A stretch of 64,000 bases of DNA from an uncultured Bacteroidota bacterium. Lineage in GTDB: Bacteria; Bacteroidota; Bacteroidia; B-17B0; Aurantibacillaceae. The position numbers and the translations under genes are program-made. The notes beneath the pieces are model-generated. The model did no database searches, was not told the origin of the DNA, and saw only the letters and a list, made by a program, of their open reading frames with translations. The DNA is taken from positions 62,001 through 126,000 of the forward strand of contig CAITNS010000018.1 in the NCBI GenBank assembly GCA_903893815.1, given 5' to 3'. Numbering within the stretch: the first letter of the stretch is position 1; every line of letters begins with the position of its first letter. Positions 26,062-62,122 of the stretch are shown one piece after another.

Positions 26062-26120
26062 AGTGATAAGTGATTAGAGTTTAGTGATAAGATATAACTA
26101 AACTCTAATCACTTATCACT
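26062..26120. repeat. Perfect 24-bp inverted repeat (GTGATAAG words)
   Basis: The left arm 26062-26085 and right arm 26097-26120 are exact reverse complements around an 11-nt loop (GATAAGATATA). Within the left half AGTGATAAG occurs twice (26062-26070 and 26083-26091). It lies in the spacer between the DciA-like gene and ispH. There is no T-tract after the stem, so it is not a typical terminator, although a transcript would form a long hairpin. Confidence 0.9.
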
Positions 26121-52249: not shown

Positions 52250-52513
52250 TTACACAATCCTTTCTAAGTAAAATAACAACAAATCGTATTGCGACTGATA
52301 TTCGCGTGCGTAACCTGAAGTGTTATATTCTTTAGGATTTTCGTAGCAAAGCCTTTCGAAATTCGTTAATAAATGATTGAAATTATCAGCATTCATTTTC
52401 TTTAAAAACACATCTCTGTTTCCTTCTAATAATTTATAAATATCTAAAGCAGATTTATGAATAGAAGTGTTTTTATAGTTTTTAATTTCGAGAATCACAT
52501 CATTTATAAGCAT
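52250..52513 (-). CDS. Small protein of unknown function (87 residues)
   Basis: I do not recognise this 87-residue protein. It has no signal peptide or membrane segment and is predicted mostly helical: MLINDVILEIKNYKNTSIHKS, then KLLEGNRDVFLKKM, then EYQSQYDLLLFYLERIV. It lies 46 bp upstream of the DEAD-box helicase on the same strand and is preceded by a GC-rich repeat. It may be cytoplasmic. Confidence 0.65.
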   Translation of the reverse strand: MLINDVILEIKNYKNTSIHKSALDIYKLLEGNRDVFLKKMNADNFNHLLTNFERLCYENPKEYNTSGYAREYQSQYDLLLFYLERIV

Positions 52514-52540
52514 GTTGTAAAGTTAATGTTTTTTATTAGT

Positions 52541-52680
52541 TGGGCGTATCGGCGCAAAAGAGGCAGCGCCGTCGGTCCGCCAGCTGGCGGATACAATCTT
52601 TTTGTTGCTCCTACGCTGCAGCTTCGGCGCAAGCGTAAAAGAACACAAAAAGGATTTTCGCTCGCATCCCTTACGCAGAT
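52541..52680. repeat. GC-rich nested palindromic repeat, copy 1 (half element)
   Basis: Far richer in G+C than its surroundings. It contains the perfect 16-bp palindrome TCCGCCAGCTGGCGGA (52576-52591), then CAATCTTTTTG, then AAAAAGGATTTTCGCTCGC followed by ATCCCTTACGC. The last two phrases recur almost exactly in the element at 57907-58145, in the same order. It begins TGGGCGTATCGG, related to the GGGCGTG ends of the other copy. It lies between divergent genes. Confidence 0.8.
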
Positions 52681-52721: not shown

Positions 52722-53108
52722 ATGAAAACAATTATTACTTCCGAAAACGCTCCACTTCCTATTGGTCCTTATAGTCACGCAAACATGGTTCCTGCTTCTG
52801 GAAATATGTTATTTGTATCAGGCCAAGTGGCAAAAGACGCTAAAACTGGCGAACTAATTTTAGGCGACATAAAAAGCGAAACTAAAAAAGTAATGGAAAA
52901 TGTGTCTGCCATTTTAAAAGATGCTGGGATGGATTTAACCAATGTAGTTAAAACAACCATTTTTATGAAAGATATGAATAATTTTGGAGCAATGAATGAA
53001 GTATATGGTTCATTTTTTACTGGTAATTTCCCAGCGCGCGAAACCGTTCAAGTATCAAGATTACCATTAGATGTAAATGTGGAAATTTCAGTGATTGCTG
53101 TGAAGTAG
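52722..53108 (+). CDS. ridA: RidA family enamine/imine deaminase
   Basis: This 128-residue YjgF/YER057c/UK114-family protein opens with the family start ITSENAPLPIGPYSHANMV. It has LFVSGQVAKDAKTGEL, VVKTTIFMKDMNNFGAMNEVYGSFF and the catalytic-Arg block FPARETVQVSRLPLDVNVEISVIA. RidA hydrolyses reactive enamines and imines released by PLP-dependent dehydratases, protecting other PLP enzymes. Length is normal and the trimer-forming residues are in place. It is a single gene flanked by two different intergenic repeats. Confidence 0.94.
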   Translation: MKTIITSENAPLPIGPYSHANMVPASGNMLFVSGQVAKDAKTGELILGDIKSETKKVMENVSAILKDAGMDLTNVVKTTIFMKDMNNFGAMNEVYGSFFTGNFPARETVQVSRLPLDVNVEISVIAVK

Positions 53109-57233: not shown

Positions 57234-57372
57234 TATCTGTTATTCCTTGTATTTTCGGCAAAGATAAGCCAAAATCAGGTACAAAAAACATAAAACACGA
57301 GCTTAACATTTTTTTAATAAACTTCTAAGCAGCATTCTGTAACTTTATAGCTCATTATTGCATTATATCATC

Positions 57373-57888
57373 ATGAAGTCTATCTTTTTAATAATTACCC
57401 TACTTGTAGTTTCATTAAGCTCATTTACATCATACAAATCTTTTGTTGCATCCATTAGTTTAATTCAAACAAACGATAGTATTCCAGAAATGAACAAACA
57501 AATTATTGAATTTGTAAAAACAAAAATCAAGAAAAAAGTAGGAACTGGTGAATGTTGGGACTTAGCAGCAGAAGCATTAAAAATAGTAAATGCAAAATGG
57601 GACATGAAGTATAAATTTGGGAAAGAAATTGATTTCAAAAAAGAACCTATTTACCCTGGTGATATCATTCAGTTTGAAAACGTGATTTTGAATTATGAAA
57701 AAGACGGAAAAAAATTTACCGAAAAAATGTCACATCATACGGCAATCATTTTTGAAGTAATTGATAAAACTAATTTTACCTTGGCTCATCAAAACAATGG
57801 CTATACAAGAAAAAAAGTGGGAATAAGTCCTATTGATTTAGCGACTTTAACTAAAGGAAAATTTAAGATTTATAGAGCGCAGAGTTGA
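57373..57888 (+). CDS. Secreted papain-like-fold candidate (GECW/HH protein)
   Basis: The ATG at 57373 starts a signal peptide (MKSIFLIITLLVVSLSSFTS). A TTG 15 bp upstream is in frame but less likely. The 171-residue protein has KVGTGECWDLAAEALK with C61, MSHHTAIIFEV with H121/H122, and HQNN near 139-142. These could be the Cys, His and Asn/Gln of a papain-like catalytic site, as in CHAP and related amidases, and the order Cys-His-Asn fits. Substrate unknown; a binding-only role is possible. Confidence 0.6.
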   Translation: MKSIFLIITLLVVSLSSFTSYKSFVASISLIQTNDSIPEMNKQIIEFVKTKIKKKVGTGECWDLAAEALKIVNAKWDMKYKFGKEIDFKKEPIYPGDIIQFENVILNYEKDGKKFTEKMSHHTAIIFEVIDKTNFTLAHQNNGYTRKKVGISPIDLATLTKGKFKIYRAQS

Positions 57889-57906
57889 TTTTTTATTCTT
57901 AGTATC

Positions 57907-58145
57907 AGGGCGTGGCCTTATGGGCCCGGGCTGACCCACTGCAATCTTTTTGCAAAGAGCAGCAAAAAGGATTTTCGTTCGCATCCCTCACGCGGGTCTT
58001 ATAGTAAAATTCGAAATGTAATCTTCGATTATTGAATAGTAAACGCGCGTGAGGGATAGAGGCATTTGTTTGAGCTCTTTTTATTTATCCCGCGGATAAA
58101 TAAAAAAGCGAGTGCCGAAAGCCCGACCCGAAGGGACACGCCCAA
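57907..58145. repeat. GC-rich nested palindromic repeat, copy 2 (full element)
   Basis: Outer arms: GGGCGTGGCCTTATGGGCC on the left, and on the minus strand GGGCGTGTCCCTTCGGGTC on the right. Inner arms ATCCCTCACGCG (left) and CGCGTGAGGGAT (right) are exact reverse complements. The phrases CAATCTTTTTG and AAAAAGGATTTTCG plus TTCGCATCCCT match the copy at 52541-52680. The right half also holds TTTATCCCGCGGATAAAT. It lies between convergent genes, just before the end of the trifunctional gene. Confidence 0.85.
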
Positions 58146-58158
58146 TCATTAAAAAAGT

Positions 58159-61100
58159 CTACCCAACATTTTTGGCAACATAAATAATATTAGAAGTGAG
58201 CTTAGTTGTATCTAATACTTCTAGAGTTAAATGAGGATGCTTAGCAATGGTATCTTTAATTAAAGTTCCACTCACAAAGTGTAAACCATCGGTTTTAGTT
58301 TTGTTAAAGCCAAATACTTTGGTACTCATAAACTCGGTGTACCAAGTTCCTTTTTGGCGAGTAGCAATATCTTTATCCGCATCACGAATCACCAAGACAC
58401 CACCTTTATTTAATTTAGAAACACAATTTTCAATCACTTGAATTTGTTGCTCTTCTTTTAAATAATGTAAGACATCGCTGATAATAAATCCGTCCACTTG
58501 AGGAAAATCAAATACAGTCACATCACCCACAGCAAAAGAAAGCTTATCTGATTTGTCTATACAACCATCTGCTACGGCTATTTTTTCATCATCATAATCC
58601 ACTCCCAAAATTTGGCGGTTACGACCTTTATACATTAACATATAAGGCAAGAAACCATAACCACAACCAACGTCCACAATTTTTCCAGTTTTAGGCATCA
58701 GGCTTTCAAACAATTGATAATTATTTTCTAAGCCAGTTTTAATACGGCAATACCATTCTAACACAGGTCCTTTAAAAATATAATTGCGAATTAAACGAGA
58801 ACGGAAGTAACCAACGGTCTCTTTTTCTTGTTTTAATAAGTCGTATTCTTTGCGCATTAACTTACAAATAGCTTTGGTGCGTTCTTGATATGTCGCTCCA
58901 AAAGAAGTTTCAGTCGGTTTAATGCGTTCTAATAATTTTACAGTTAAAGAACCATCTTTAAAATGAAAATCCCCTTTAGTAACCGTGTCCCCTGCTCCAT
59001 GTAATAATAAAGGAACAATATCCAATTGCATTTGTTCTGCTAATAAAAAGGCGCCTTTATGGAAACGCAAGATATCACCTGTCACGCTGCGCGTTCCTTC
59101 TGGGAAAATTAATATAGAATAACCTTGTTTTACTAATTCGGTTAACGACGGAATACATTTTTCGTAACCATCAGAAGCACGGTAATAATCGGCTTTCTTT
59201 ACAATCCACCCGTAGAAAGGAGAATTGTAAACCCAATCGTTTGTAAAGACAACAATTTTAGGATATAGCTGTAACGTTAGCGCTAAATCAATATGCGATT
59301 GATGGTTGGAAATAATGATCGCTGGTTTTTCAAACGTTTCGTTGTGTGGATTCACAATTGTTTTTTTGACATTGAAAAAGCAAGCCAAAATAAAACGGAA
59401 CGTGTACATGATGATATAATGAAATATCAATTTACGAGTAGCTGTTTTGGCTGGGAAGATTGTAAATAGTAAAGCACCACAAATTGTAATCAACAATGAC
59501 CCTACAACAAAACCAAAAAAGCCAACAACCGTAATTAAAATGTATTTAGCAGTAAATGGCAGCAAACCTTTATTTCTTCGATTTAAAACCAACCAATTAA
59601 ATAATAATGGTTGTGCAATAAAAGAAATAAAAACTACGCACAACATGCCAATTAGCGTAATTAAAGCAATAGATTGCAATGCAGGATGTTTAGCAAACAC
59701 CATCACCCCTATTCCAATAATAGTAACTAAAGCTGATAAGAGAATAGATGATTTAAAAGAGTTTAATGTTTTTTTACCAAACTTATATTCGTTAAGTAAT
59801 CCATCCATGATAAAAATACTGTAATCATCTCCCAAACCAAAAATAAAAGTTGAGATGATGATATTGATGATATTGAATTTAATACCAAATATGCCCATGA
59901 TTCCTAAAATCCACAACCAACTAATTAACATAGGTAAGAAGTTAATCACTGCTAATTCAATACGTCCATGATTTAACAACATAAAGCCAAATACCAAAAT
60001 AGAAGTAATCATTAAAATGGTATTGAAATCAGAACTGATCACTTCAACAAACTTAGAAGTCAGGTTTTGTTTATCAAATACCACAATGTTAGGATTGGAT
60101 TCAAAAGCTTTATAAATTAATTCTCTATTCTCAGCATCCACTTTTACATGGTTAATAATAGATGGCTTACCATTTACTTTCCCAATCCATTCTTTAAACA
60201 AATATTTATTCAACGAATCCGAATCCGCCTGAGATAATTTAGAAACAGGATTATCTAATAAATTGTAAAACGATTGAAAAGCAGTTTCTTTAAACTTAAA
60301 ATTCAATCCTGTAGCAATTAATTGTTGTTTTAAACTATCTTTTTTAGCTTGGCTAAAAAATGTATTCCAACGGTTAATACGCACTTCTTGTTCTTTGGCA
60401 GACATAAACAAGGCGCTTACCGAAGAATATTTTTTAATAAGACCTTGCTGCTTTAATGCCTCTAACTTTTCTGAAACAACTGTGTTATTATCTAAAGCTT
60501 CATTCAATGTATTCCCGTTACTAAATACGTAAACCGAACGAGCAGCAAAATTATTAACTTCATCTAAATGTTTTTCAGCATCACGAGTTTCTTTGGTCAT
60601 GAAACTCATCTTGTTCATGTCACTTTCAAATTCAACATCACCTGCAAAAAAAGTAAACACAATTGTTAAAATGAATGCAGAAATTACAATTACTTTGTTT
60701 TTATCAAATCGATAGGATGTAAATCTATCAATCCATGAATGTGAAGCTTCATCCGTCTCAACATGCTCTTTTTCTTTTCTGAAACTAAATTTTAATAATT
60801 GAGGCAAGACAAAAATCGAGAATAACATCGCTCCTATCAACGAAAAGGCAGCAAACAAACCAAAATCGTGTAGCGCTTCTGACTTAGCAAATAATAAACT
60901 TAAAAAAGCTCCAACGGTGGTTGTACAGCCAATTAACATCGGCACGGTTAAATCTTGTAAAACTGTTTTTACATCTCGTGTATGTTTGTAATGCGTAAAA
61001 AAATGTAAGGAATAATTAATGGCAATACCCAGTACCACCGCCCCTGCTCCTATAGCAATGGCAGAGACAACACCTTTTAATAAAAACAAAAAGCTTAAGG

Positions 61101-62016
61101 CAAATGCCATCCCAAAACCTACTGGGAACAAAATGAAAATAGTAACTAAGGGATTTTTAAAGTACAAGCCTAATAATAAAGCAATCACAATGACTGCAAC
61201 ACTGGAAGTGTATAAACTATCTTTTCGCAACTGATTAGCATTACCTGCCGATACAACAGCCGCACCAAAATTCTCTATTAAAACCGTTTCATTACTAAAT
61301 GCTTTACAAGTGCTATCAACTACATTTATTAAATGTGTATTGCCTTTGGTATCATTAGGTAAATGAGCTGGAGTGATGAATAACAACACATGCTGATGAT
61401 CTTTGGTAACAATATGACTATTATAGGTTTCAAATTTTTCATCTAACTGAATATTTTGTAATTTTTTAAGTGCAATAGGTGTGAAATTAAGTGGGTCGCG
61501 CTGAATATATTTTCCTAAAACAACACCAGAAGGAGAAAGCAAAGTTGCATAATCTCGTTCAATTGTGACATCAATACTATCTTTTAAAATGAGGTTTGAG
61601 ATTTTCGCGTAATCCTTTTCTTCTAAAAACAAAGGCAAATTATGATAAAACACATCATACACTTGCTGCATTCTATCGTCAGATAAGGTATAAGTAATAT
61701 CAATATAATCTTCTTTACTTAACTTTTGTTGGATACGGCTATAAACAGAATCTGTTTGAGCAATGAGTTGGTCTATATTTTCTCCATTTTTAGCAGAAGC
61801 ATGTACAATTAATTTATCCTTAGATTTTAAATTATCTAAAATAGAATTGATGGATTGCGAATTTTTATCAGAAGGAACAAAACGAGTGATGTCTTCTTCT
61901 AATTTAATTTTTGAAGCAAAAAATCCTAGTGCACCACAAGCAATTAAAATCAACAGAATGAAAATAACTTTTCGTTTTTGAAAAAAGGAATATATAAAAT
62001 ACGAGAAATTAAACAT
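58159..62016 (-). CDS. Trifunctional MMPL transporter / lysophospholipid acyltransferase / SAM methyltransferase
   Basis: A giant fusion of three modules (1285 residues from the ATG at 62016; a TTG 18 bp upstream is less likely). Residues about 1-830 are an MMPL/RND-type lipid exporter with two sets of transmembrane helices and long extracytoplasmic loops. Residues about 900-1090 are a PlsC-type acyltransferase (NHQSHIDLAL, FPEGTRS). Residues about 1115-1285 are a class I methyltransferase (VDVGCGYGFLPYML). The same fusion occurs in flexirubin or aryl-polyene lipid clusters of Bacteroidota; no other such genes are near. It would modify and export a lipid. Confidence 0.88.
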   Translation of the reverse strand: MFNFSYFIYSFFQKRKVIFILLILIACGALGFFASKIKLEEDITRFVPSDKNSQSINSILDNLKSKDKLIVHASAKNGENIDQLIAQTDSVYSRIQQKLSKEDYIDITYTLSDDRMQQVYDVFYHNLPLFLEEKDYAKISNLILKDSIDVTIERDYATLLSPSGVVLGKYIQRDPLNFTPIALKKLQNIQLDEKFETYNSHIVTKDHQHVLLFITPAHLPNDTKGNTHLINVVDSTCKAFSNETVLIENFGAAVVSAGNANQLRKDSLYTSSVAVIVIALLLGLYFKNPLVTIFILFPVGFGMAFALSFLFLLKGVVSAIAIGAGAVVLGIAINYSLHFFTHYKHTRDVKTVLQDLTVPMLIGCTTTVGAFLSLLFAKSEALHDFGLFAAFSLIGAMLFSIFVLPQLLKFSFRKEKEHVETDEASHSWIDRFTSYRFDKNKVIVISAFILTIVFTFFAGDVEFESDMNKMSFMTKETRDAEKHLDEVNNFAARSVYVFSNGNTLNEALDNNTVVSEKLEALKQQGLIKKYSSVSALFMSAKEQEVRINRWNTFFSQAKKDSLKQQLIATGLNFKFKETAFQSFYNLLDNPVSKLSQADSDSLNKYLFKEWIGKVNGKPSIINHVKVDAENRELIYKAFESNPNIVVFDKQNLTSKFVEVISSDFNTILMITSILVFGFMLLNHGRIELAVINFLPMLISWLWILGIMGIFGIKFNIINIIISTFIFGLGDDYSIFIMDGLLNEYKFGKKTLNSFKSSILLSALVTIIGIGVMVFAKHPALQSIALITLIGMLCVVFISFIAQPLLFNWLVLNRRNKGLLPFTAKYILITVVGFFGFVVGSLLITICGALLFTIFPAKTATRKLIFHYIIMYTFRFILACFFNVKKTIVNPHNETFEKPAIIISNHQSHIDLALTLQLYPKIVVFTNDWVYNSPFYGWIVKKADYYRASDGYEKCIPSLTELVKQGYSILIFPEGTRSVTGDILRFHKGAFLLAEQMQLDIVPLLLHGAGDTVTKGDFHFKDGSLTVKLLERIKPTETSFGATYQERTKAICKLMRKEYDLLKQEKETVGYFRSRLIRNYIFKGPVLEWYCRIKTGLENNYQLFESLMPKTGKIVDVGCGYGFLPYMLMYKGRNRQILGVDYDDEKIAVADGCIDKSDKLSFAVGDVTVFDFPQVDGFIISDVLHYLKEEQQIQVIENCVSKLNKGGVLVIRDADKDIATRQKGTWYTEFMSTKVFGFNKTKTDGLHFVSGTLIKDTIAKHPHLTLEVLDTTKLTSNIIYVAKNVG

Positions 62017-62022
62017 AGTGTT

Positions 62023-62030
62023 TAAAGATA
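62023..62030 (-). promoter_or_regulatory. Candidate -7 box of the trifunctional gene
   Basis: The minus strand reads TATCTTTA (one mismatch to TAnnTTTG), 6 nt before the start codon at 62016. No -33 TTG is seen. Confidence 0.3.
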
Positions 62031-62122
62031 GCAAAAAGGGGGGTTCTTATAAAAATATACTGTAAAAAATACTTTTTTATAGAAAAAATAAATCGTTACA
62101 TTTACTCTGAAAACTTACTTTT

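Follow-up and report, generated by a model that had tools for sequence, protein, structure and literature searches.

A head-to-head doublet of branched repeat units in a Bacteroidota genome, probably copies of a non-autonomous, REPIN-like mobile DNA repeat

What is the nested inverted repeat that separates two convergent genes in the genome of an uncultured Bacteroidota bacterium, and why is it there? The repeat lies within the 64,000-nucleotide stretch of DNA analysed here (the window; contig C18:62001-126000 of the 3.69-Mb draft genome G000), in the gap between a gene at 57358-57888 (+) and one at 58159-62034 (-). A sequence-only reading had placed it, correctly, between convergent genes, and had described it as a palindrome within a palindrome at 57907-58145. 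A nested inverted repeat is indeed present, with outer arms GGGCGTG (57908-57914) and CACGCCC (58137-58143) and inner arms ATCCCTCACGCG (57983-57994) and CGCGTGAGGGAT (58046-58057); the limits were off by one base on the left and two on the right, the true ends being 57908 and 58143. Folding of the 251-nt stretch that contains it is predicted to yield -100.8 kcal/mol for the + strand and -94.0 kcal/mol for the - strand (z -7.75 and -6.60, respectively), energies reached by none of 200 shuffles. The arms are inverted as described, but the outer ones do not join into one large palindrome; the partner of each is the inner arm within the same unit. What looked like one unit is two structured repeat units arranged head to head, a doublet.

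The two opposed units have their 5' ends innermost. Unit A (86 nt, 57908-57993, - strand) reads GCGTGAGGGAT ... CACGCCC on its own strand, its closing stem pairs 57989-57993 with 57910-57914, and model R1 matches it at 57904-57997 with 73.0 bits (E 1.8e-15). An A+T-rich spacer of 53 nt (57994-58046) separates it from unit B (97 nt, 58047-58143, + strand), which is divergent in the middle (GAGCTCTTTTT..AAAAAAGCGAGTGCC) and has the same ends and three-way-junction fold; model R1 finds it at 58043-58147 with 32.9 bits (E 1.1e-5). When unit B is folded as single-stranded DNA, identical stems are predicted on either strand (z -3.29 and -2.97). The phrases that the doublet was said to share with 52541-52680 belong to a third, single unit at 52542-52676 on the - strand (model R1 52538-52680, 45.6 bits, E 9.1e-9), which lies between genes at 52250-52513 (-) and 52722-53108 (+). 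Elsewhere in the window, two nearly perfect inverted arms of 28 nt enclose a 3-nt loop at 26062-26120.

The structure of the unit was derived from the genome's own copies. Forty-two matches of G000 to the Rfam family Flavo-1 (RF01705), read in register, gave the recurrent ends GCGTGAGGGAT (5') and CACGCCC (3'). Alignment A1 holds 38 of them, with stems assigned by eye from the columns; the four left out are Flavo-1 copies of another type on contigs C53 and C78, a degenerate copy on C73 and the long copy at 52542. The unit, ~82-135 nt across the family, folds as a three-way junction composed of a closing stem GCGTG/CACGC, an inner GGG/CCC stem, a T-rich hairpin and a variable hairpin, and column inspection adds AG-CG inner pairs and a bulged C in the T-rich hairpin. 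Some variable hairpin precedes the closing 3' strand in 38 of 38 segments, the weakest at -1.3 kcal/mol. In this alignment 95.2% of 682 cells are paired, as against 35-53% when the structure is slid along it; 12 of the 18 pairs are changed on both sides, and 56 cells are doubly changed versus a shuffled mean of 9.5, a value reached in none of 500 shuffles. A larger set of 103 units from many genomes, aligned by fitting to the model, is 96.6% paired, with 178 doubly changed cells versus a shuffled mean of 36.1. The pairing is local to each unit. Across 12 doublets with five closing-stem pairs per unit, 118 of 120 pairs are Watson-Crick within the unit, whereas matches between units number 45 of 60 for the inner arms and 43 of 60 for the outer arms; the window doublet is absent from this count because unit B is not in alignment A1. 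This difference rules out one big nested palindrome, and the palindrome-in-palindrome appearance arises because two units stand in opposite directions. Outside the family, units are preceded by pyrimidines and followed, after CACGCCC, by AAA (A at the first three positions in 27, 27 and 29 of 30 units), the remainder of the flanks being unrelated.

The arrangement of neighbouring units has a fixed polarity. Among the 103 units, drawn from 70 sources (the window, the host's own loci found through Flavo-1, and loci of relatives found through Flavo-1 or model R1), pairs of neighbours less than 300 nt apart are arranged head to head in 24 cases, tail to tail in none and direct in 8, and the spacer measures 43-53 nt in 17 of the 24 head-to-head doublets (usually ~48 nt). 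These spacers are A+T-rich and weakly alike. One set of direct neighbours, on G018:C1, is a tandem array of four copies. Direct runs on G012:C19 and G018:C101 had raised the possibility of cassette or attC-like arrays, which was rejected because the genes between the units are unrelated and the runs are either single units spread out or short tandem repeats. Units also commonly occur singly, with the same ends. The doublet is not universal: 30 units in 29 loci outside the family all lack a neighbouring unit within 300 nt. Two own loci depart from the usual layout: at L039:604-770 (G000:C69) another palindrome (CTGAACTTGATTCAG...CTGAATCAAGTTCAG) sits inside the doublet spacer as a nested repeat, and at L037:543-1956 (G000:C81) one ~1.2-kb gene for a secreted-looking protein lies between two single units oriented head to head, a site of which only the left flank aligns in relative G017.

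The check on genome-wide copy number proposed with the sequence-only reading returned dozens of dispersed copies. A DNA search of G000 gave 36 matches at E<=1, Flavo-1 gave 42 at E<=1 (10 of which reach its gathering score, a cut-off passed in 0 of 14 named control genomes), and model R1 recognised 44 units. Within the genus, Flavo-1 matches at E<=0.001 occur in 19 of 20 congeners (G000 included), from 0 to 89 copies per genome, and the close relatives G016 and G017 are nearly empty, with 0 to 2. Units were found by model R1 in at least 62 of 87 family genomes (at least 7 of 10 genera) and at least 125 of 295 genomes of the class Bacteroidia (at least 62 of 156 genera), minimum figures, since scoring was limited to the best candidates of each genome; the impression that GGGCGTG...TCGGGC phrases are widespread in Bacteroidota thus holds for the class. 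Open frames of 150 or more codons span 5 of 133 units versus 1137 of 1780 random stretches, and the units are therefore intergenic. A distant-mode search of phages and plasmids with one unit gave no match. Age shows in the copies within G000, whose median identity is 57% and whose closest pair reaches 91%, and for this reason there is no recent burst that would prove movement.

Evidence for turnover comes from orthologous sites. At the window site, the right-hand gene is kept in 15 of the 20 congeners (G000 included). G004 has a single unit there, as does G005, whose unit is of B type and lies at a contig end; G008 has both genes and no unit, and G003 another repeat at a contig end; the remaining congeners have other neighbours or contig ends. 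At this orthologous site, at the junctions after a methyltransferase gene (L071, L068), other palindromic repeats (CCCTCTTGAAGAGGG..., CTTTCTTTGCC...AAAGAAAG) replace the unit in G008 and G003, as if this gap accepted several repeat families. One flank of 26 of the 29 own sites was then searched in two relatives, G003 and G017, which gave 35 matches, 30 of them with loci. In G017 both flanks aligned at 14 of 15 loci and a unit was present at none of the 15; at site g12, which carries another Flavo-1 type invisible to R1, the absence rests on a 27-base gap. In G003, 9 of 15 loci are occupied, 5 are empty with both flanks aligned (the gap at one of these, g18, containing ~800 bases of other DNA) and 1 was left uncalled. 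Empty sites, which the sequence-only reading had proposed to look for, are therefore present in relatives, and its refuting case of a single copy with no such sites does not apply. The species with empty sites are ~80-96% identical and intergenic DNA between relatives is too diverged to locate insertion junctions to the exact base, so that gain and loss are inseparable at any one site.

One doublet has also changed its orientation. On contig C10, the G000 and G003 copies are 0.851 identical when flipped and 0.592 when collinear, with flanking genes collinear in both; unpaired differences per unit are 6/54 and 10/56 in the flipped comparison and 26/53 and 25/52 in the collinear one. The whole doublet is inverted in place between the two genomes. 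Two other shared doublets are collinear (0.935 and 0.980) and a fourth is diverged (0.656). Across ten orthologous units of G000 and G003, counted without both units of site g1 and with the C10 doublet compared flipped, differences number 8 in 358 stem positions versus 63 in 618 unpaired ones (p 1e-6). Because orthologous stems change less and old copies are still 95-97% paired, the fold is kept after insertion; upkeep by selection at the site and by palindrome correction are both possible.

Taken together, we give a probability of about 0.6 to the reading that the unit is a non-autonomous, REPIN-like mobile DNA repeat of Bacteroidia whose fold matters as DNA. We favour it because copies with constant ends (pyrimidines-GCGTG ... 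CACGCCC-AAA) are dispersed in unrelated intergenic places, because sites are occupied or empty in relatives and one doublet is inverted in place, and because the covarying fold is local, the doublets share a single polarity and a spacer of fairly uniform length, and no target duplication is seen. The suggestion of a non-autonomous mobile unit made from the sequence is likewise supported by the dispersal, the presence and absence at orthologous sites, the 0-89 copies among congeners and the inversion. In such a scheme the unit would be recognised as a folded DNA strand (or a cruciform), a nuclease or transposase would act at its ends, and it would move without target duplication, and hairpin or template-switch copying, as in REPINs, could give rise to the doublets; after insertion its fold would be maintained by selection at the site or palindrome correction. 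The likeness to REP, REPIN and BIME repeats is considerable, as the units are intergenic, dispersed and palindromic, form inverted doublets of one polarity (24 versus 0) and, in places, tandem arrays, and lack target duplications. IS200/REP systems are not known to make target duplications. The unit differs in being several-fold longer and branched, in lacking both a GTAG foot and a linked RAYT, in having fewer copies, and in standing single in the 29 loci examined outside the family.

A genuine REP/REPIN moved by a RAYT (a Y1 HUH transposase) is the alternative that survives best, and we consider it improbable, though worth weighing. It would account for the doublet architecture and the absent target duplication, and PMC6006769 describes a Bacteroidetes RAYT subclass, 2.6, with atypical structures on its flanks that recur elsewhere in the genome. 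Y1_Tnp matches occur in 100 of 125 class genomes with units versus 103 of 170 without (p 0.0004, a test that ignores phylogeny and genome size) and in 23 of 25 genomes with at least 10 listed units, a co-occurrence that may reflect general mobile-DNA load. Against this, 5 of 10 congeners with at least 19 copies lack any Y1_Tnp match, including G012 with 52 copies, and the RAYT-like protein encoded on contig C59 was detected in 6 of 20 genomes, with G004, G005, G009, G012 and G018 not among them. A linked RAYT flanked by the repeat was seen in 0 of 39 Y1_Tnp neighbourhoods of unit-rich genomes; a 40th, cut wide, holds two units ~3 and ~4 kb away. The four Y1_Tnp genes of G000 (L063-L066), one of them ~2 kb from a doublet, are by our own reading flanked by other repeats, a fact that, with the copy-rich genomes lacking Y1_Tnp and the empty neighbourhoods, weakens the link they had suggested; these are different short palindromes of their own, such as a GCTCCTAAGGAGC-like one and GACCCGAAAGGTTT..AAACCTTTCGGGTC. 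The GTAG tetranucleotide placed at the foot of REP palindromes in PMC3733652 does not occur at the foot of the unit, which has pyrimidines before GCGTG and AAA after CACGCCC. Nor did a common neighbouring gene emerge as mobiliser: 351 frames of at least 80 codons beside units were clustered and read by eye without a transposase being seen, the largest cluster (9 loci) looking like a secreted repeat-protein family. Neither an autonomous copy nor a mobiliser of the units was found.

Could the units instead be host-maintained DNA sites, bound by a nucleoid, gyrase-like or structure-specific protein and kept in place by selection? The lower rate of change in orthologous stem bases and the high pairing of old copies would suit such a role, but G016 and G017, close relatives, do with 0 to 2 copies and the sites are not conserved among relatives, which makes this unlikely as a general explanation. 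Old, stem-keeping copies could nonetheless serve their host locally.

Equally doubtful is the view of Flavo-1 as an RNA, small or cis-regulatory, with the window doublet as a pair of divergent RNA genes or leaders. Judged by sequence and fold, the unit core is a relative of Flavo-1 that stays below its cut-off: unit A scores 30.8 bits (57920-58003) and the single unit 19.4 against a gathering score of 42, and unit B is not listed. The function of such phrases had been called unknown, which needs a partial correction, as a relative is catalogued as an RNA. The two share the core hairpin ATCCTTTT/AAAAGAT, an AGCG/AGCG internal part, an inner three-pair stem and the phylum; the unit of L045 aligns with Flavo-1 over positions 1-76 with the core pairs kept, and the core stems covary. 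The Rfam consensus has neither closing stem nor variable hairpin, whereas the unit adds the closing stem GCGTG/CACGC and a third hairpin, which make the three-way junction; the inner stem is CCC/GGG in Flavo-1 and GGG/CCC in the unit, and the unit occurs in doublets. Besides the Rfam filing, the strong covariation (12 of 18 pairs doubly changed) and the conserved orthologous stems would fit an RNA, as would the high-scoring CCCG-closed Flavo-1 copies beside constant genes in several congeners. The top-scoring copies (L035:597-672 on G000:C78, L036:499-575 on G000:C53, and L096-L101) have a CCCG/CGGG inner stem and no GCGTG closing stem, and adjoin two constant genes that, from their translations, we read as bioA-like (G000, G005, G008, G012) and DegT aminotransferase-like (G001, G003, G018; the G000 copy by sequence); these copies may represent a lineage of the family that has become fixed and domesticated.

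The wobble pairs bear on the choice between DNA and RNA. An RNA fold selected on one strand is expected to show more G-U than A-C pairs, but the unit stems contain 21 G-T and 31 A-C in the family alignment and 6 and 8 in the non-family alignment, versus 5 and 0 in a small control of nine distinct tRNAs of the genus (Fisher p 0.015). The stems thus carry no RNA signature, to the extent that so small a tRNA control allows, and the evidence points to DNA. Copies also lie on either strand relative to neighbouring genes, in all gap types. A 2010 survey lists Flavo-1 as a likely RNA with no cis-regulatory or switch role (PMC2864571). A transcriptome study of F. psychrophilum reports Flavo-1 matches in sense or antisense indistinctly, many of them outside transcribed regions (PMC9723704).

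That the repeat is a MITE, with terminal inverted repeats on which a DDE transposase acts, is improbable to the point of being set aside. The unit shares with MITEs its shortness, lack of autonomy, inverted ends and intergenic position, and the doublet could pass for a ~240-bp element with inverted ends inserted at unrelated sites, but no adjacent direct repeat of at least 4 nt exceeds shuffled expectation in 24 doublets under four boundary choices, an absence of target duplication that speaks against a DDE MITE; moreover, single units with identical ends are common, half units stand alone with a fold local to each half, terminal pairs covary inside the unit and not across doublet ends, and neighbouring frames and listed unit positions revealed no relative carrying a transposase gene between such ends. 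The double-sided transcription barrier that had also been proposed, or bidirectional terminator, is the least credible. The window doublet does lie between convergent genes and has strong hairpins, and its 500-bp surroundings contain two terminator-like patterns where shuffles average 0.5, but the G000 doublets occupy 4 convergent, 5 divergent and 6 co-directional gaps (1 unclear) and AAA(T), with no T-run, follows the stem.

Finally, we tentatively suggest a broader view, itself rather unlikely on present evidence: the units may be a class-wide mobile single-strand DNA element of Bacteroidia with a three-way-junction fold, moved by an enzyme not yet described and distinct from RAYT, and the Flavo-1 "small RNA" may largely be a member or descendant of that DNA family rather than an RNA. 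No description of the unit family as a DNA repeat was found in the titles and abstract openings of the openly licensed literature. Dispersed head-to-head DNA units would explain the Flavo-1 matches on both strands, for which the F. psychrophilum study had no explanation (PMC9723704), the Flavo-1 model gains the closing stem and hairpin that it lacks, and the case would be a warning that covariation alone is not proof of RNA. It also raises the question of which enzyme moves branched palindromes in Bacteroidia, and whether such repeats act on neighbouring genes.
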